From: Candidatus Dadabacteria bacterium
GTDB lineage: Bacteria > Bdellovibrionota_C > UBA2361 > J135
Direction of reading: 5' to 3'
DNA length: 14,929 bases
Assembly (NCBI GenBank): GCA_003694225.1
Contig: RFKT01000112.1
Location: forward strand, 1 to 14,929
The notes below the pieces were generated by a model. The model saw nothing but the letters and a program-made list of their open reading frames with translations, had not been told where the DNA came from and did not search any database. Both the position numbers and the translations under genes were made by a program. Positions 1,212 through 12,341 of the stretch are shown in pieces. Position 1 is the first letter of the stretch, and every line of letters begins with the position of its first letter.

Positions 1212-2585
1212 ATGAGCGCTATCGGCTGTAATTTAGATCAAAAGGCCAGCCCGCCTGTCATATTGATAGTTGATGACGAGGAAGGTATCTGCAAAGCCTT
1301 TGAGGGGATATTCTCGGATGAGGGGTATATAACTGTTTCTGCGGGAAATGCGGAAGATGCGTTTGATCTTATAGAATCCATGTCACCTTCCCTTGTGTTT
1401 TTGGATATATGGCTTCCGGGTAAGGATGGGATAGAAACGCTGGTTGAGATTAAGGACAAATACCCAAATCTGCCTGTGGTAATGATTAGCGGTCACGCAA
1501 CAATAGCCTCGGCTATGAAAGCAACAAAATTAGGCGCCGCAGATTTTATAGAAAAGCCTCTTGATCTTAATCTTGTCCTGGATGCGGCTAAAAGATGCAT
1601 AGAAAATGGAGGGAAAGGGCGTTGGCAACAAAAACAGCCTAGGAAAATTGCAAAGGAAAAGGCTGGGATGGGTAAGGGCATACCGAAGATAGGCACGAAT
1701 CCTCTTACGAAAGCCGCCTTTGGCAAACGGTCTTGGCGGGGAAGGCGCATACCGCAGAGGACTCTTAAAAACAGCGCTCTTCTGTATGGTCAAGGGCTTC
1801 ATAGTGGTGCAAAGAGCGGTTTGATATTTGAGCCTCTTCCGCCTAATAGCGGTATTCACTTTGCTGAGCTCTCTTCAATGTCTGTTGTGCCGGCTTATGT
1901 CGATTTTGTTGAGTCTACGGGTTATGCCACTACTCTTAAATGCGGCGATGCGCAAGCTAGCACTGTAGAGCATCTGATGTCAGCGCTTCATGCTTATGGC
2001 ATATGCAATTTGCTGGTAAAATGCAACGGCGAAGTTCCGGTTATGGACGGTTCTGCAATAAAATTTTGCGAGCTGATAGAAGATGTTGGCATTGAGGAGC
2101 AGGACGGTGAGTGGTATGAAATTGATGTGCGGAAGCCCGTCAGGGTGGATAATGGCAAGGAATTTATTGCTATAGAACCAGCAGACAGTTTTATTATTGA
2201 CTATACCCTAAAATACCCTTTCCCCCTTGGAGAACAGCGGTATGTGTTTGAGCTTAGTGGAGGGGTTGAAGGATATAAGACAGAGATTGCAAAAGCTCGC
2301 ACATTTGGGTTTGTGAGAGATGTGGAACACCTTCAAAAGCAGGGTCTCGCATTAGGAGGGCGGTTTGATAACTTTGTGCTTTTTGGCGAAAATGGCCCAA
2401 TTAACTGCGACTTAAGGTATACTGACGAGCCTGTAAGGCATAAAATTTTGGATGTGATAGGGGATTTGTACCTCTTGGGAAGGCCTATTAAAGGCAAGGT
2501 TTCAGCCAGCATGAGCGGCCATTCTGACAACATTTCCCTCCTTTGCGCCCTTAAAGAGGCTATGCTTGATGAGGCCGAGGTGTGA
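1212..2585 (+). CDS. lpxC: Receiver domain fused to UDP-3-O-acyl-GlcNAc deacetylase LpxC
   Basis: One 457-residue ORF holds two domains. Residues 16-130 are a CheY-like receiver close to the NtrC/NtrX group: acidic pair D21-D22, phospho-acceptor D65 in FLDIWLP, S93 in MISGHA, and K115 in EKP. Residues 131-182 are a very basic, probably flexible linker. Residues 183-450 are LpxC, the zinc deacetylase that makes the committed step of lipid A synthesis in the cytosol. Its metal and catalytic residues are all present: E253-H254 (TVEHL), H410 and D414 (HKILDVIGD), H437 (SGHSDN), plus T364-F365 (RTFGF). These match E78, H79, H238, D242, H265 and T191-F192 of E. coli LpxC. E. coli LpxC is about 305 residues, so the extra length is the receiver plus linker. 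Both halves look functional. I infer that phosphorylation at D65 may control LpxC activity, stability or location, but the sequence alone does not show this. A weaker internal ATG at 1668 in the linker could give LpxC alone. Confidence 0.93.
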   Translation: MSAIGCNLDQKASPPVILIVDDEEGICKAFEGIFSDEGYITVSAGNAEDAFDLIESMSPSLVFLDIWLPGKDGIETLVEIKDKYPNLPVVMISGHATIASAMKATKLGAADFIEKPLDLNLVLDAAKRCIENGGKGRWQQKQPRKIAKEKAGMGKGIPKIGTNPLTKAAFGKRSWRGRRIPQRTLKNSALLYGQGLHSGAKSGLIFEPLPPNSGIHFAELSSMSVVPAYVDFVESTGYATTLKCGDAQASTVEHLMSALHAYGICNLLVKCNGEVPVMDGSAIKFCELIEDVGIEEQDGEWYEIDVRKPVRVDNGKEFIAIEPADSFIIDYTLKYPFPLGEQRYVFELSGGVEGYKTEIAKARTFGFVRDVEHLQKQGLALGGRFDNFVLFGENGPINCDLRYTDEPVRHKILDVIGDLYLLGRPIKGKVSASMSGHSDNISLLCALKEAMLDEAEV

Positions 2586-3960: not shown

Positions 3961-6147
3961 CTAGAGCCTTTCAGCTACTATCTCAGCGATATCTTTTACT
4001 TCCATCTTTTCTTCTGCATCAAGCAGCTTCAATCCGTCTTGGAGCATATGTTTGCAGAATGGGCATCCGGTCGCTATGCAGCTCGCTCCTGTACCTACGG
4101 CCTGTTTTGCCCTTTCTGTATTTATCCGCTCACCTATTTTAAGGTCCATCCAAAAATGCCCGCCTCCCGCCCCGCAGCACATCGCATCTGATTTAGACAT
4201 AGGCATCTCTTTCGGGGCAGATATTGTTGCGGCAGAAATGACGGCTCTTGGGGCATCATAAATCCCATTATGCCTCCCTAGATAGCATGGATCATGAAAC
4301 GTTACAGAGTTATCGCTATTAGGTGATAATTTTAACTTCCCTTCAGATAAGAGTCTTTCAATTAGAGCGGAGTGGTGAATCACAGGTATATTTTTACGTA
4401 ACCCGTAGTCAGGGTATTCCTTAAGGAGCGTGTTATAACAGTGAGGGCAGTTAGTGACAATCGAACTACATTTAATGGAATTTAATACAGCTATATTTTC
4501 CTTTGCGAGAGTCTGAAACAAATTCTCTTCTCCCAATCTCCTTGCATGATCTCCCGTGCACCTTTCCTTTGTGCCTAGTATTCCAAAATTTATACCTGAA
4601 GCCCTCATTATCTTAACCAAAGCTCTGCCTATCTTTTGTTTTTCAGGATCAAAGGCTGTAGCGCATCCTACCCAGTAAAGCACATCACAGCTTCCACCTT
4701 CTTCAATAACAGGGACATCAAGCCCCTCGCACCACTTTGTCCTGTCTTCCTGAGGCCCATACGGGTTGCCCCTATTTTCAAGTGCCCTAAGCATACTTTG
4801 TGCTTCTCTGTTAACCTCACCCCCAATCATTACTGAATACCGCCGGTTTTGTATTATATGATCTATGTGGTCAATTCCAGCAGGGCATACCTCTACGCAG
4901 GCTCCGCAGGTGGTGCACGATTCAAAGCTTTCCCGGGAGATAACTTCACCGCAGATTAGTGCTTCAGAGTTAGAGCCGGCCGAGATGAGGCTTTTTTGCA
5001 CCCCTTCATTGTCTGCTCTGTGTTTTCCCCCGTTTTTTGACACAAATGCGCCGTTTCCATCTTCTGTAAGGCCGCTAAGGGGAAGCTCAAGCCTTCTAGT
5101 TAGCATAGAATCTATATTGTTGAGGAAGCGGGGGAGTGATGTCTCTTCATTTTTCGCTGCAATGGCACGCATATGGCTTTTGGTATCTAAAATAACCCAT
5201 TTTGGAGATAGGGGCTTTCCTGTGGCATATGCCGGGCATGCATCTTGGCATCGCCCGCATTCTGTGCAGGCATCCAGATCCAGTAGGTTTTTCGATGAAT
5301 AGTCAGTTATCTTTCCGTATCCAAGAGAAAAGTCTTCCTCTTCAGCTTCCTCAATAAGTGTGCTGATATCCGCCATAGGAGGAAGCTTTCCCTTAACGTT
5401 TGATGCGTTTGCCATAAGGTTTAGCGGGGTGGATATAATATGAAAGAGCTTTGTGTAAGGAAATATCGCAATTGAAACGAAGACCGTGATTGTATGGAAC
5501 CACCATGTATAAAAGTGAATTGAGGAAAGCGCCTTTTGTGAAAGTCCTGATAGTGGTACGGACATAATGTATCCAACCGGAGACCAAAGCTTCCACGGAT
5601 CAGAAGTTGCTGCTATTCTCGCTCCTTCTAAAACAAACCCTTGAATTATCAGAAGTCCTAGCAGGGCTATTACAAGGAGATCCGAGCCGGGGTTGTGGAG
5701 CATCTTTTGTTTAGAGATATACCGCCTATATGCGGCTATAATAAGGCCAACTAAAAGGCCAAATCCAAGCACATCGCTTAGCAGTGTTATAACAAGGTAA
5801 TAATTGCCTCTATAAATCTCTATCCCAAGATCGTGCTCTATGAAAACAGATGTAGTTGCTATGAGAAGAACTATAAAGCCAATAAATATAAGGGAATGCA
5901 TGATACCCTGTATGGGAGCAGAGAGGGTTTTTGCTTGACCCAATACATATATTAAGAAAGCCTTTATATAGGCTAAAGGGTTATCTTGAAAGATTTTTCC
6001 ATTTCCACCTTGCCATACCTTTATTCTCTTTATTACTCCCACTGCTGCAATACACAGTGAAATTGTCATAAGGAGGTACATTGTGATTATATTGGCGGGG
6101 TGTGTGATATTCCACAGGATCTCTCTTGAAGGAATCTGCTCAGTCAT
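3961..6147 (-). CDS. EMO-like membrane iron-sulfur oxidoreductase (HdrD/NarI-type fusion)
   Basis: The 728-residue protein begins with a NarI-like membrane domain: hydrophobic spans at about 20-40, 63-103, 116-140, 155-173 and 213-231, with candidate haem-ligand histidines H84, H211, H218 and H236. Two 4Fe-4S motifs follow, C294-C297-C300-C304 and C411-C414-C417-C421, each followed by Pro. Then come two CCG (HdrD/GlpC) domains: C495, C530, C567-C570, and C621, C657-C658, C695-C698. The second has the full Cys-Cys pattern; the first has Cys-Thr at 530-531. This order matches the EtfAB:(mena)quinone oxidoreductases that pass electrons from acyl-CoA dehydrogenases through ETF to quinone in fatty-acid- or aromatic-degrading anaerobes. 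The start is supported by AGAGGA at 6152-6157, four bases upstream. No etfAB or acyl-CoA dehydrogenase gene lies in the window, so the donor is inferred from architecture. A heterodisulfide- or lactate-linked role is possible. TTTAAGC occurs twice upstream (6173-6179 and 6192-6198). Confidence 0.88.
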   Translation of the reverse strand: MTEQIPSREILWNITHPANIITMYLLMTISLCIAAVGVIKRIKVWQGGNGKIFQDNPLAYIKAFLIYVLGQAKTLSAPIQGIMHSLIFIGFIVLLIATTSVFIEHDLGIEIYRGNYYLVITLLSDVLGFGLLVGLIIAAYRRYISKQKMLHNPGSDLLVIALLGLLIIQGFVLEGARIAATSDPWKLWSPVGYIMSVPLSGLSQKALSSIHFYTWWFHTITVFVSIAIFPYTKLFHIISTPLNLMANASNVKGKLPPMADISTLIEEAEEEDFSLGYGKITDYSSKNLLDLDACTECGRCQDACPAYATGKPLSPKWVILDTKSHMRAIAAKNEETSLPRFLNNIDSMLTRRLELPLSGLTEDGNGAFVSKNGGKHRADNEGVQKSLISAGSNSEALICGEVISRESFESCTTCGACVEVCPAGIDHIDHIIQNRRYSVMIGGEVNREAQSMLRALENRGNPYGPQEDRTKWCEGLDVPVIEEGGSCDVLYWVGCATAFDPEKQKIGRALVKIMRASGINFGILGTKERCTGDHARRLGEENLFQTLAKENIAVLNSIKCSSIVTNCPHCYNTLLKEYPDYGLRKNIPVIHHSALIERLLSEGKLKLSPNSDNSVTFHDPCYLGRHNGIYDAPRAVISAATISAPKEMPMSKSDAMCCGAGGGHFWMDLKIGERINTERAKQAVGTGASCIATGCPFCKHMLQDGLKLLDAEEKMEVKDIAEIVAERL

Positions 6148-7929: not shown

Positions 7930-7978
7930 TAATCTACGTTAGGGTGACGTTACCGTTATTTTCTCGAGGTTTTTGAGA

Positions 7979-8503
7979 GTGAGTGAACAGGAAAGAGGTT
8001 TAGAGACAGGAGCAAAGGGATCTTCTTCTGAGGAGAGTGAAGAAACCACAGTCTCTTCTGCTGGTGTTGATCTCAGCAAGCTGGGCAAGGCGCGGGAAAG
8101 CTTAGAGCAACTATTACAAGCAAGGACCCGAGAGAAGAGCGACGTAAATTTTTCCTCTCTCTTTAAGCTTATAGGTCTTGAAAATGCCATACCTAAAGGA
8201 GATGCAAGCGTGCTGGCATTTATTAAGATGGCATCCCTTCCCACCTCTACAGAAATTAAGGTTTTAGAAGGAAAAATCGATCTTTTAATGAGCAAAATAG
8301 GGGCAATGTCTACCAAGCTTTCGAGGGTAGCTGAGAGTCTTTCGGATATTCCTAGTGGAAGCGATGTGGAAAGAATTGAAGCTCAAATAATAGAGCTTCG
8401 TTCTGCGGTAAAGAGCCTCCTCAAGGAAAAGGGGAGTGATGAGAACGGTGCTGAGGCGGCTACGAAGGCAAAGCTCAAGTCTTTTAGAGAAAAGAACAGT
8501 TAA
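7979..8503 (+). CDS. Unrecognised coiled-coil protein
   Basis: I do not recognise a family. From the GTG at 7979 the protein has 174 residues; GAGG at 7966-7969 is nine bases upstream, which suits this start better than the in-frame TTG at 7973 (176 residues). It has no signal peptide or membrane segment. The first 25 or so residues are acidic and Ser-rich (SSSEESEETTVSS). A middle part holds predicted helices (DLSKLGKARESLEQLLQAR, then SSLFKLIGLENAIP). From about residue 100 on there are heptad-like stretches (IKVLEGKIDLLMSKIGAMS and VERIEAQIIELRSAVKSLL) typical of coiled coils. The tail is Lys-rich. Only 21 bp separate it from the PHP-like gene, so the two proteins are probably made together. 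I infer a structural or adaptor role. Confidence 0.7.
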   Translation: MSEQERGLETGAKGSSSEESEETTVSSAGVDLSKLGKARESLEQLLQARTREKSDVNFSSLFKLIGLENAIPKGDASVLAFIKMASLPTSTEIKVLEGKIDLLMSKIGAMSTKLSRVAESLSDIPSGSDVERIEAQIIELRSAVKSLLKEKGSDENGAEAATKAKLKSFREKNS

Positions 8504-9559: not shown

Positions 9560-10702
9560 ATGTATTCTGCTATTTATACAGAAACTAAAGAGAGAGAGAT
9601 TAGATCCTATCTCCACTCTGTAATACAGAAAGCATCAAGAAGAGATGTAGAAGATGTTTTGTCAAAAAATTATATCTCTTTTGCTGACTTTTTAGTTTTA
9701 ATATCTCCAGCGGCAGAGCCGTTTTTGGAGGAGATGGCTCAAAGGGCTAGACAGGTAGCCTTAAGCAGATTTGGGAAGAATATCTTTCTTTATTGTCCTC
9801 TGTATATTTCTAATGAATGTGTGAATACCTGCACATATTGCGGATTCTCAAGGCCCAACAAGATCAGGAGGAGAACTTTAACCCTTGATGAGGTTTTCAG
9901 AGAAGGAGAGGTGATAAGAGGGAGTGGAATACGGAATTTATTGCTTTTAACGGGTGAATCTCCCAAGAGGGCGCCAGTGTCGTATATAAAAGATGCAGTC
10001 TGTGTGTTGCGCCCCCTTTTTGATTCTATTCACCTTGAGGTATTTCCTGTAACAGTTGATATTTATCGAGAATATCTCGAAGCGGGAGTTGATGGTATAT
10101 CCGTTTACCAAGAGACTTACAACAGAGATACATACAAAACTGTGCATACCGGCGGATTTAAAATGGATTTTGATTACAGATTGGATTGCCCTGACAGGGT
10201 TGCGGCGGCTGGTATTAGGAATATCTCCATAGGGGCGCTTTTCGGTCTCTCTCCTTGGAGAGAAGAAGCTGCAGTACTGGCACATCACCTCCGTTATCTG
10301 GAAAAGACGGCGTTTAGATCAGCTATTTCTCTCTCTTTCCCAAGGCTTAAGGAGGCTTACGGGGCAGAGAGCGGTTCGCATCCGATTACGGATAGGGAGT
10401 TTGTCCAGATGGTGTGTGCGTTTCGAATTTTTTCACCAGATGTTGGAATAAATATATCAACAAGAGAGCCCCAATGGCTTAGGGATGGTTTGATATCTGT
10501 TGGAATCACAGCTATGTCTGCTGGATCTCGCACAGATGTCGGTGGTTATTCAATGGAGCCTGAATCTGACGCGCAATTTTCACTTGACGATACCCGCTCT
10601 CCGCGGGAAGTTGCTGAGGCGATAGCAAGCAAGGGATATCAGCCGGTATTTAAGAATTGGGATGCCGCATTTTTACCTTCTGCAATGAGAGTCGGCTTAT
10701 GA
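9560..10702 (+). CDS. thiH: 2-iminoacetate synthase ThiH (radical SAM)
   Basis: ThiH cleaves tyrosine with S-adenosylmethionine to give dehydroglycine (2-iminoacetate) for the thiazole ring of thiamine, passing it to ThiG. The 380 residues match the usual length of about 375. The radical-SAM cluster motif is C87-x3-C91-x2-C94 followed by GF (NECVNTCTYCGF). Further family landmarks are LLLLTGESP, IHLEVFPV, GVDGISVYQETYNRDTY, FDYRLDCPDR, IGALFGLSPWR, SISFPR-type (SLSFPRLKEA), STREPQWLRDG and the conserved MSAGSRTDVGGY. HydG is ruled out because its C-terminal Cys-rich extension is absent. No other thi gene is present, so the gene is separated from its pathway here. AGAGAG at 9545-9550 supports ATG 9560. 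The stop interlocks with the stop of the opposing TerB-like gene (TTATGA), so the ends overlap by six bases. Confidence 0.93.
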   Translation: MYSAIYTETKEREIRSYLHSVIQKASRRDVEDVLSKNYISFADFLVLISPAAEPFLEEMAQRARQVALSRFGKNIFLYCPLYISNECVNTCTYCGFSRPNKIRRRTLTLDEVFREGEVIRGSGIRNLLLLTGESPKRAPVSYIKDAVCVLRPLFDSIHLEVFPVTVDIYREYLEAGVDGISVYQETYNRDTYKTVHTGGFKMDFDYRLDCPDRVAAAGIRNISIGALFGLSPWREEAAVLAHHLRYLEKTAFRSAISLSFPRLKEAYGAESGSHPITDREFVQMVCAFRIFSPDVGINISTREPQWLRDGLISVGITAMSAGSRTDVGGYSMEPESDAQFSLDDTRSPREVAEAIASKGYQPVFKNWDAAFLPSAMRVGL

Positions 10703-11149
10703 GGTTTTACTAAGCCCAAGCATCTCTTTGAATTTTTCCCTTAAATATATTTCGTACCCATCTTCTTTCCCATCAGCCATAATTACTTCATTTATTAGAT
10801 CCATTATCGCTTTTCGCTCTGTTTCGGGCAGGTTCTTGCGCAATAGCTCTCCAAAACGGGATGTGCCGCGAAGCTGTTTAAGCACCCGATTTGCCCTGTT
10901 GACCATCTCTTGCACTTCTTCATGGGTAGTGCCAAATATTCGATTTAGCCCGTTTACTATTGCTTGATATTCAACCATGTCAAAGTTCTGATCGATTGAA
11001 GCAAGGTCAACTAAGAGCACTGCTGCCGCAAACTCTAGATCCTGCACAGGCACTGAAGAGGATATCTTGGATTTGCGGTTGGCAGCAAATGATTGTGCAA
11101 ATAAATTATGTACTGATTTCTGAAGAAATGCTTGATTAGAATCGTTCAT
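10697..11149 (-). CDS. TerB-like (DUF/COG4103-type) protein
   Basis: The 150-residue soluble, mostly helical protein resembles the TerB/COG4103 group. It has two symmetrical helical halves carrying acidic motifs: LLVDLASIDQNFDMVEYQAI at about 45-64 (D53, D57, E60) and INEVIMADGKEDGYE at about 119-133 (D126, E129, D130, E133). In TerB these acidic sites bind metal at the membrane face. The family name comes from tellurite resistance, but most members have unknown or stress-related roles and none is proven here. The N-terminal 35 residues are variable. AGG about eight bases before the ATG at 11149 is a weak ribosome site. It converges on thiH and overlaps its end by six bases. A 14-base direct repeat lies upstream (11186-11199 and 11287-11300). 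Confidence 0.75.
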   Translation of the reverse strand: MNDSNQAFLQKSVHNLFAQSFAANRKSKISSSVPVQDLEFAAAVLLVDLASIDQNFDMVEYQAIVNGLNRIFGTTHEEVQEMVNRANRVLKQLRGTSRFGELLRKNLPETERKAIMDLINEVIMADGKEDGYEIYLREKFKEMLGLSKTS

Positions 11150-11359: not shown

Positions 11360-12341
11360 ATCTGATGCTCATAATGTCTTGAATATCCAATAACCCCAAC
11401 GGCTTGAAATCTTTGCTTACAACTATTAACTGATCGATCTTGTGCTTAGAGATAATGTTTAAGGCCTCTTCAACGAGACTGTCAGGGGCTACTGTTTTGG
11501 GGTTTCTTCCCATTACTTCTTTTATGGGTTTATCTAGGAAATCCTTCCCGCTTTCTAGGCATCTCCTTAAATTCCCATCTGTAAATACCCCCTTTAATAT
11601 GCCTGATGAATCTACCACAGCACATGCTCCCGGCCGCCCTTTTGTGGTTGTGATGACATGTATTGCCTCCCTTACCGTCACATTTTCTTCTACTACCGCA
11701 TTTTCCTCACCGGTTCTCATAAGGTCTTTTACCTTCATAAGCTTCCTTCCGAGACTTCCCCCCGGATGATAAAAGGCAAATTCTTCCTTTGAAAAGCCTT
11801 TGTGTTCCAGCACTGCCATAGCCAAGGCGTCTCCAACTGCAAGCATTACAGTTGTGGATGTAGTGGGTGCTAGCCCCAATGGCCCGGCTTCCTTAATATT
11901 TCCGATCTCAATTACAACATCGCTATGCTTTGCAAGGCTTGAATCTGCCGTAGATGTAATGCTTATTATTGGACAGCCAACCCTTTTTATAGCTGGAAGG
12001 ACCCTTAATATCTCAGGAGTTTCCCCAGAGGTTGAAAGCACTAACGCTATGTCATCTTGAGAGTATCTTCCCAAATCTCCGTGGACAGCCTCTGCTGGAT
12101 GCAAGAAGAAAGACGAGGTGCCTGTACTGGCTAATGTGGCTGAGATCTTCATCGCTATAAAGCCGGCTTTTCCCATCCCTGACACAACAATTCTTCCTGT
12201 GGGTGGAGCATTCAAAATTGTGTGTACGGCTTTTACGAATGGCTCTCCAAGAGTTTCAGCGACGGTATTGATAGCTTCTGCTTCCGCTTGTAGAATCCTC
12301 CGCCCTATTTCAGCTATATCAGTGGAGCTATCTTTGTTCAT
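11358..12341 (-). CDS. kdsD: Arabinose-5-phosphate isomerase (KdsD/KpsF)
   Basis: KdsD interconverts ribulose 5-phosphate and arabinose 5-phosphate, the first step to Kdo for the inner core of lipopolysaccharide, in the cytosol. The 327 residues have the typical layout: a SIS sugar-isomerase domain at about 35-185 and a pair of CBS domains at about 205-325. The active-site residues known from E. coli KdsD (K59, E111, E152, H193) are all present as K58 in GMGKAG, E110 in SGETPEI, E151 in KEAGPLG and H192 in FYHPGGSLGRK. HPAEAVHGDLG and LAPTTSTT are also conserved. The sequence cannot tell KdsD from its capsule paralogue KpsF or GutQ. No lipopolysaccharide gene is adjacent, though lpxC is in the same window. 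The ATG at 12341 has no clear Shine-Dalgarno site, but a good promoter lies about 50 bp upstream and the family length fits. Confidence 0.95.
   Translation of the reverse strand: MNKDSSTDIAEIGRRILQAEAEAINTVAETLGEPFVKAVHTILNAPPTGRIVVSGMGKAGFIAMKISATLASTGTSSFFLHPAEAVHGDLGRYSQDDIALVLSTSGETPEILRVLPAIKRVGCPIISITSTADSSLAKHSDVVIEIGNIKEAGPLGLAPTTSTTVMLAVGDALAMAVLEHKGFSKEEFAFYHPGGSLGRKLMKVKDLMRTGEENAVVEENVTVREAIHVITTTKGRPGACAVVDSSGILKGVFTDGNLRRCLESGKDFLDKPIKEVMGRNPKTVAPDSLVEEALNIISKHKIDQLIVVSKDFKPLGLLDIQDIMSIR

Follow-up and report, generated by a model that had tools for sequence, protein, structure and literature searches.

Lipopolysaccharide synthesis has to be matched to the needs of the envelope, and how this is done is known mainly from enterobacterial proteolysis through LapB and FtsH. 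The committed enzyme of lipid A synthesis, LpxC (UDP-3-O-acyl-GlcNAc deacetylase), also occurs in nature as LpxC-FabZ (PRK13188, NF009667), a fusion that joins two enzymes and carries no receiver. Response regulators, for their part, include forms with enzymatic output—CheB and the GGDEF and HD-GYP regulators—in which an N-terminal receiver drives a C-terminal enzyme of signalling or modification.

Two-component control of lpxC has been described at the level of transcription. The NtrYX system acts on lpxC in alphaproteobacteria (PMC7240162, PMC12444477, PMC13001219): it is reported to inhibit lpxC transcription in R. sphaeroides and Caulobacter (PMC12444477), and in R. sphaeroides without NtrYX the lpxC transcript is reported to rise 8.8-fold, an effect judged indirect (PMC7240162). 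A D. vulgaris regulator, DVU2934, is reported to have lpxC as its single target, and in S. fumaroxidans lpxC is said to adjoin an operon orthologous to that of DVU2934 (PMC3333781). Bordetella genetics reportedly support PlrP, whose domain is DUF4390, as the third component of an NtrYX-type system (PMC13001219).

Here we describe a bacterial locus that encodes an NtrX-type receiver and LpxC as one protein. As in NtrY-NtrX systems, including PlrSR with PlrP, the receiver is of NtrX type, the candidate kinase combines NtrY_N, HAMP, PAS, HisKA and HATPase domains, and a DUF4390-like gene adjoins the kinase gene; unlike the described NtrX proteins, which are transcription factors, the output is a lipid A enzyme, and the form studied here has neither the AAA+ nor the DNA-binding part. 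The enzyme half shares with other LpxC proteins the full catalytic domain, its residues and the best fold matches, whereas the regulation described for LpxC elsewhere, in those parts of the literature that were accessible, is by proteolysis or transcription. DVU2934 likewise represents two-component control of lpxC, but of a transcriptional kind, with regulator and enzyme as separate proteins. The arrangement of N-terminal receiver and C-terminal enzyme is that of CheB and its like, but here the enzyme belongs to outer-membrane biosynthesis and is present once per genome of the class.

Control of lpxC transcription by NtrYX is thus already known; the receiver-LpxC fusion appears to be new among response regulators with enzymatic output. 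No naming of such a fusion was found in the titles and abstract openings of the open-access literature searched, although an older mention is possible; 'LpxC' is absent from a response-regulator census (PMC1183210), and 'response regulator' and 'receiver' are absent from a review (PMC12444477). A first-pass annotation, made from the DNA alone, had guessed that similar fusions lie unremarked in databases, and many such proteins are indeed there, mostly unnamed or labelled plain LpxC.

Materials and Methods

The window is the whole stretch of DNA that was analysed, 14,929 nucleotides of the forward strand of contig RFKT01000112.1 (NCBI GenBank assembly GCA_003694225.1, Candidatus Dadabacteria bacterium), and all positions without a locus or contig label refer to it. 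A protein search with the window protein scored 8,000 candidates and returned 7,835 proteins at E ≤ 0.001. The class sample comprised 45 genomes including the window's own (G000), 40 of them with LpxC; the search for fusions covered 382 genomes, 337 of them outside the class.

The LpxC tree was built by a quick method with SH-aLRT support from 101 domains, one per genome, taken from 126 distinct domains; its unfused rows were those fetched, and the contig-cut rows L063 and L069 were left out together with a set of near-duplicate Nitrospinota genomes. Values of dN/dS are pairwise medians by the Nei-Gojobori method.

Results and Discussion

The fused protein

The fusion is a single open reading frame of 457 amino acids at 1212-2585 (+ strand), with an ATG start and zero internal stops. 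It begins 9 bases past the stop codon of purA (adenylosuccinate synthetase, identified by NCBIfam and the neighbour survey; 3-1202, + strand, 5′ end lost at the contig end), which also precedes the fusion at most other class loci surveyed (16 of 19, counting the window's), and a consensus Shine-Dalgarno sequence, AGGAGG, can be read between the two (1203-1208, + strand). Pfam assigns residues 17-125 (1260-1586, + strand) to a receiver (Response_reg, PF00072; 93.6 bits, cut-off 30.2) and residues 182-448 (1755-2555, + strand) to the LpxC deacetylase domain (PF03331; 277 bits, cut-off 27); the NCBIfam model for lpxC, TIGR00325, also passes (246.3 bits, cut-off 187.25). With both domains above cut-off in one frame, the first-pass claim of an in-frame junction between receiver and LpxC stands.

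So does the claim that the five receiver residues and the LpxC active site are complete. In an alignment of the window protein with the best 119 others of the 7,835 matches, D21, D22, D65, S93 and K115 are invariant (120/120), Asp65 being the phospho-acceptor (codon at 1404-1406, + strand). The same alignment holds E253, H254, T364, F365, H410, K411, D414, D418 and H437 of the LpxC part invariant in all 120 proteins; we take these to correspond to E. coli LpxC E78, H79, T191, F192, H238, K239, D242, D246 and H265. The domain score and the intact zinc and catalytic residues predict deacetylase activity. Between the domains lies a linker (residues 132-175; 1605-1736, + strand), and positions 131-180 are weakly conserved in the alignment.

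The receiver called by the first-pass annotation is real, but its assignment to the NtrC type gives way to NtrX. The best NCBIfam receiver family is NtrX (NF051870, 109.1 bits), the top two PDB receiver chains are 4d6x and 5m7n, presumably both Brucella NtrX, and fused receivers cluster with NtrX in a receiver tree that, with 113 columns and weak resolution, serves as support only. The curated cut-off of NF051870, 600 bits, is not reached; judged by its sequence, the window protein is a descendant of NtrX, yet one not filed as NtrX under that cut-off. AAA+ and Fis-type DNA-binding domains, present in relatives, have no Pfam match in the window protein. Identity as a bifunctional LpxC-FabZ was considered and rejected (NF009667, 192.5 bits vs a cut-off of 465), there being no Pfam match to a C-terminal FabZ in the window protein.

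A predicted structure of the window protein (mean pLDDT 85.0, pTM 0.71) has a full receiver of five alternating strands and helices at residues 16-131, a stretch with pLDDT below 50 at 137-162, and the LpxC fold from 176 on. All 50 listed Foldseek matches of the model are LpxC structures, including 8v24 (LpxC with the LapB cytoplasmic domain), and none of 60 listed PDB sequences matches both halves of the protein. As modelled, the long linker would fit altered pairing, location or proteolysis of LpxC at least as well as tight allostery.

Distribution and origin

Both domains are present in all of the best 120 of the 7,835 homologues, and within the class a single match crosses the receiver-LpxC junction in 39 of the 40 LpxC-bearing genomes, the fortieth (G036) being cut by a contig end. 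An assembly join between two genes, raised by the first-pass annotation as a possible artefact, is ruled out, as is chance, by this recurrence of one architecture on many separate contigs. No second LpxC was seen in any class genome, the two places in G021 lying at two contig ends. A scan of contigs with the window protein gave 48 loci at which the matched residues shown stop by residue 167, within receiver and linker, and so yielded no named fusions; the window's own genome holds no second place above 73.5 bits. Some NCBI records in this group are variously labelled Deltaproteobacteria, Ca. Dadabacteria, Oligoflexia, Proteobacteria and Pseudomonadota.

Mapping the spread of the architecture, as the first-pass annotation had proposed, placed it in the class and in several other, mostly uncultured lineages. 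Outside the class, 19 of 337 genomes carry a fusion among the matches listed, a count based on architectures checked on fetched loci, so that very diverged fusions could be missed. Four of these have receiver-LpxC (G202, G214, G351 and G348) and fifteen have an AAA+ domain between receiver and LpxC. Such NtrX-LpxC fusions, in which receiver and AAA+ are in most cases followed by a Fis-like tail before LpxC, occur in metagenome-assembled genomes of Nitrospinota, Schekmanbacteria and Tectomicrobia; the first found, in G049, is a protein of 757 amino acids with receiver, Sigma54_activat, AAA lid and LpxC. The phylum of G049 (77 genomes) is Nitrospinota, with relatives named Nitrospina sp., Nitrospinaceae and Ca. 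Nitromaritima. Two further searches gave LpxC, Sigma54 and receiver in 120 of 120 and again 120 of 120 proteins among the matches listed, and JGI records label several NtrX-LpxC proteins NtrX. For the receiver-AAA-HTH part of the G305 protein, too, the best NCBIfam family is NtrX (NF051870, 401.7 bits over 28-472), under the cut-off of 600.

Counted as distinct LpxC domains, the fused forms fetched comprise 44 receiver-AAA-HTH-LpxC, 11 receiver-AAA-LpxC, one receiver-HTH-LpxC and 41 receiver-LpxC, where HTH means the Fis-like tail as recognised by a profile built from Nitrospinota sequences. Two further fused frames show no receiver only because their contigs start inside them, and every frame of the fused clade fetched with an intact start has one. 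The single receiver-HTH-LpxC protein (G057, L202) has lost the AAA+ part and kept the tail.

The GAFTGA-like pattern of the sigma54 loop is found in 0 of 58 AAA-bearing fused frames (56 genomes), all 58 of which keep the Walker A pattern; among stand-alone NtrX proteins adjoining NtrY in other genomes, 7 of 10 keep a GAFTGA-like loop. The loss alone is no proof that DNA-related work has ceased, because Caulobacter NtrX, a transcription factor, is reported also to be without GAFTGA (PMC10274813); betaproteobacterial NtrX is reported to have no AAA+ at all (PMC13001219). In two genomes, G176 (L307) and G204 (L308), an unfused lpxC is followed on its own strand by ntrY and then ntrX, which likely represents the arrangement that preceded fusion.

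A fully supported branch of the LpxC tree separates 77 fused rows from 24 unfused ones; G028 and G055 are among the rows on long branches. A single clade of all 41 AAA+-free rows is rejected (p-AU 0.0018), so the AAA+ domain was lost more than once or, less plausibly, gained more than once. A three-row test uniting G079 with G123 and G124 gave p-AU 0.0011, but its rows were picked after inspection of the tree and it is not independent.

D65 and D22 are retained throughout a set of 97 fused genomes, D21 in 92 (Glu in five), S93 in 96 (Thr in one) and K115 in 96 (Arg in one); the LpxC residues are kept in 97 of 97, save the F365 position, kept in 96. Median dN/dS in genus g36 is 0.033 for the receiver, 0.100 for AAA, 0.141 for HTH and 0.035 for LpxC (59-63 of 66 pairs usable); the same four values are 0.022, 0.121, 0.139 and 0.021 in genus g60 (9-15 of 15 pairs usable), and 0.070, 0.167, 0.146 and 0.046 in family f44 (2-6 of 6 pairs usable). 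For genus g11 of the window's class they are 0.031 for the receiver, 0.184 for the linker and 0.045 for LpxC (10, 13 and 3 of 36 pairs, respectively, in the usable dS range). Receiver values thus span 0.022-0.070, LpxC 0.021-0.046 and AAA+ 0.100-0.167, the AAA+ parts evolving at roughly two to six times the rate of receiver and LpxC. By these estimates the receiver is under strong purifying selection.

The candidate kinase

Outside the class, a histidine kinase frame lies directly upstream of the fusion on the same strand in 18 of the 38 fused loci fetched, with gaps of −62 to +276 bases between the two frames; all six fusion-linked kinases tested have NtrY_N above cut-off together with HAMP, PAS, HisKA and HATPase. 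Two of the 18 kinase-linked fusions, in G123 and G124, are AAA+-free. NtrY is absent beside the fusion in the other 20 of the 38 loci, including those of G103, G066 and G065, relatives of G049; in these three genomes and in G049 and G058 it lies elsewhere, with no receiver gene within 1.5 kb.

An NtrY ortholog scoring at least 390 bits is found in 32 of 40 fused genomes vs 16 of 78 genomes with unfused LpxC, a descriptive comparison with no formal test, since the profile was built from 16 fusion-linked kinases and the genomes are related. The 78 are each at least 90% complete with LpxC confirmed (80 of 80 checked), though long frames such as that of G218 (626 aa) might hide a receiver in the same frame. 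Among the remaining fused genomes, NtrY is split over two matches in G002 and partial in G006 and G037, and no ortholog is found in G011, G028, G044, G214 and G351 (completeness at least 92% for G214 and G351, at most 88% for the other three). Directly downstream of ntrY, 14 of the 16 unfused genomes with such an ortholog encode a stand-alone NtrX; G142 has none there and G258 is cut.

Some receiver-LpxC proteins from NtrY-less genomes are unusual: that of G214 (L169) has Arg at the conserved Lys and that of G028 (L184) has Glu at D21 in a very diverged receiver, while G351 (L168) has all five residues. A connection between the absence of NtrY and unusual receivers was considered and set aside, because the sample is too small for a claim and the receivers of G011 and G351 are intact.

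Within the class, the kinase gene is unlinked to the fusion: none is seen beside it in the window, where purA occupies the place directly upstream, and in all 22 class genomes examined, some of them cut by contig ends, the available 1.5 kb to either side of NtrY contains neither a receiver gene nor LpxC. Class NtrY is therefore an orphan, and its pairing with the fusion there rests on orthology. The first-pass annotation had advised looking for an orphan histidine kinase in the same genome, and one of NtrY type is present in G000, which is 70% complete, at G000:C250 6662-8512. This NtrY has NtrY_N, HAMP, PAS and HisKA above cut-off, and the contig stops past HisKA. Named after the syntenic locus L262, the genes run in the order penicillin-binding protein (other strand), yebC, ruvA, ruvB, a 184-aa frame and ntrY. 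With 23.2 bits, the 184-aa frame falls short of the DUF4390 cut-off of 27; among its counterparts, that of G001 clears it (45.9 bits), that of G003 scores 15.0 bits, and eight of the nine aligned match at E ≤ 1.

Proposed mechanism and alternatives

We propose, with a probability of roughly 70%, that the window protein is an NtrX-derived response regulator in which LpxC has taken the place of the DNA-binding machinery, and that NtrY controls LpxC directly through Asp65. On this proposal, an in-frame fusion joined an ancestral NtrX to the LpxC N-terminus; its AAA+ and Fis-like parts would have lost the sigma54 loop and been deleted more than once, leaving receiver, linker and LpxC. The membrane kinase NtrY and its periplasmic DUF4390 (PlrP-like) partner would sense the state of the envelope, NtrY would phosphorylate or dephosphorylate Asp65, and the phospho-receiver would alter the output of the tethered LpxC through its activity, pairing, membrane placement or stability. 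Both the phosphotransfer from NtrY to the receiver and a resulting change in LpxC output are steps that we infer. That the change is a lowering of output is a guess, to which we lean by analogy with R. sphaeroides, where lpxC transcripts rise once NtrYX is lost. Weighing against the proposal are the unlinked kinase of the class, the 20 fused loci elsewhere with no NtrY beside them, the five fused genomes lacking an ortholog, the PAS-type kinase near the fusion in G010 and G016, the very low confidence of the modelled linker and the indirect nature of the lpxC effect in R. sphaeroides.

The strongest argument is gene position: the slot after ntrY is filled by NtrX, by NtrX-LpxC or, in two genomes, by receiver-LpxC, and an NtrY-type kinase is thus the likely partner of the fused receiver. 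Taken with the retained receiver under purifying selection, the orphan NtrY and the 18 of 38 upstream kinases, this keeps two-component control of LpxC through its own receiver, as the first-pass annotation read it, the best reading, and suggests that membrane signals act on the LpxC enzyme itself rather than only on its gene. We hold with somewhat less assurance, though still on the side of belief, the broader claim that lipid A synthesis in these bacteria is set by direct phospho-control of LpxC via NtrY and its DUF4390 partner, a transcription factor having fused to the product of a gene probably once under its control and lost its DNA-binding parts, so that a transcriptional circuit became post-translational in several deep lineages, including the nitrite-oxidising Nitrospinota. 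If true, whole lineages would use a separate solution to matching LPS synthesis to envelope need, with the committed lipid A enzyme as the response regulator itself. The genomes would also keep the likely steps—the lpxC-ntrY-ntrX order, NtrX-LpxC fusion, AAA+ loss and receiver-LpxC—as a rare record of a transcriptional regulator becoming an enzyme's regulatory domain, which bears on how NtrYX came to rule the envelope.

The rival that survives best, unlikely but deserving serious weight, is that LpxC would be handed to a protease or spared according to the phosphorylation state of its receiver, a substitute for the LapB/FtsH route that leaves catalysis unchanged. Proteolysis is described as controlling LpxC in other bacteria, the linker of the model is of low confidence, and 9 residues follow the LpxC match in the window protein vs 28 in 4mqy_A, an E. 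coli chain of 305 residues. PF18073 matches none of 20 class genomes, and a query with E. coli LapB gives no match there that reaches its C-terminal end (best 40.4 bits); the lack of a recognisable LapB there would leave room for another control of LpxC. PF18073, a zinc ribbon, is however not specific to LapB, with matches in 10 of 14 control genomes (B. subtilis, for example), near-full-length LapB-like matches occur in fused genomes outside the class (G123, G103, G066, G182 and G348), and no adaptor or degron for a stability route was identified. PF18073 presumably also marks RadA-like proteins, so that its absence from the 20 class genomes may, as a separate matter, point to a lost or altered RadA in the class.

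Somewhat less probable is a role in location rather than catalysis: as a docking module, the receiver would bind NtrY and so keep LpxC at the membrane, and release triggered by phosphorylation would tune LPS synthesis. NtrY, with NtrY_N and HAMP, is taken as membrane-bound, and the long linker suits docking, but near-complete conservation of the phosphorylation residues suggests more than that.

More doubtful again is that the class, in part or as a whole, relies on a kinase other than NtrY, or that several kinases cross-talk to the receiver. Two genomes of class genus g11, G010 and G016, encode a PAS-HisKA-HATPase kinase lacking NtrY_N at a distance of about 1.1 kb, on the strand opposite to the fusion and separated from it by an HDOD gene (L099:11314-13547 and L098:7326-9548), and 5 of 40 fused genomes have no NtrY ortholog; against this, none of the other 17 fused loci of the same set, 16 of them from the class, shows a kinase within 3 kb, and NtrY is the fusion-linked kinase in 18 other genomes. 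An HDOD gene is also found near the NtrX-LpxC of G049 (L087:12640-13440).

Two further readings are highly improbable. Decaying parts do exist in these fusions, whose AAA+ and Fis-like regions change faster and are lost in places, but a receiver that was a mere relic of the NtrX fusion, or at most a folding aid, would hardly evolve about as slowly as LpxC, keep D65 in all 97 fused genomes and be present in every frame fetched with an intact start. Separate products, made from an internal start or by cleavage and freeing LpxC from its receiver, could draw on the purine-rich stretch upstream of linker residue M153 and on the fact that LpxC works alone in other bacteria, but M153 lies in a weakly conserved stretch with 30% gaps in the 120-protein alignment and a separate receiver product would leave retention of the fusion unexplained.

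Other genes on the contig

Several other genes of the window merit mention. An HU-family protein (PF00216; 2931-3422, + strand) has a long, histone-H1-like N-terminal tail rich in Lys, Arg, Ala and Thr. At 3964-6147 (− strand), a protein of 728 amino acids combines a nitrate-reductase-gamma-like membrane part, 4Fe-4S centres and CCG domains and resembles oxidoreductases of the heterodisulfide-reductase type. Frames of 176 amino acids (7973-8500) and 150 amino acids (10700-11149) have no Pfam match and no NCBIfam match, respectively. A KpsF/GutQ-type arabinose-5-phosphate isomerase (TIGR00393, above cut-off; 11361-12341, − strand), a step towards Kdo, is encoded on the same contig as the fusion.
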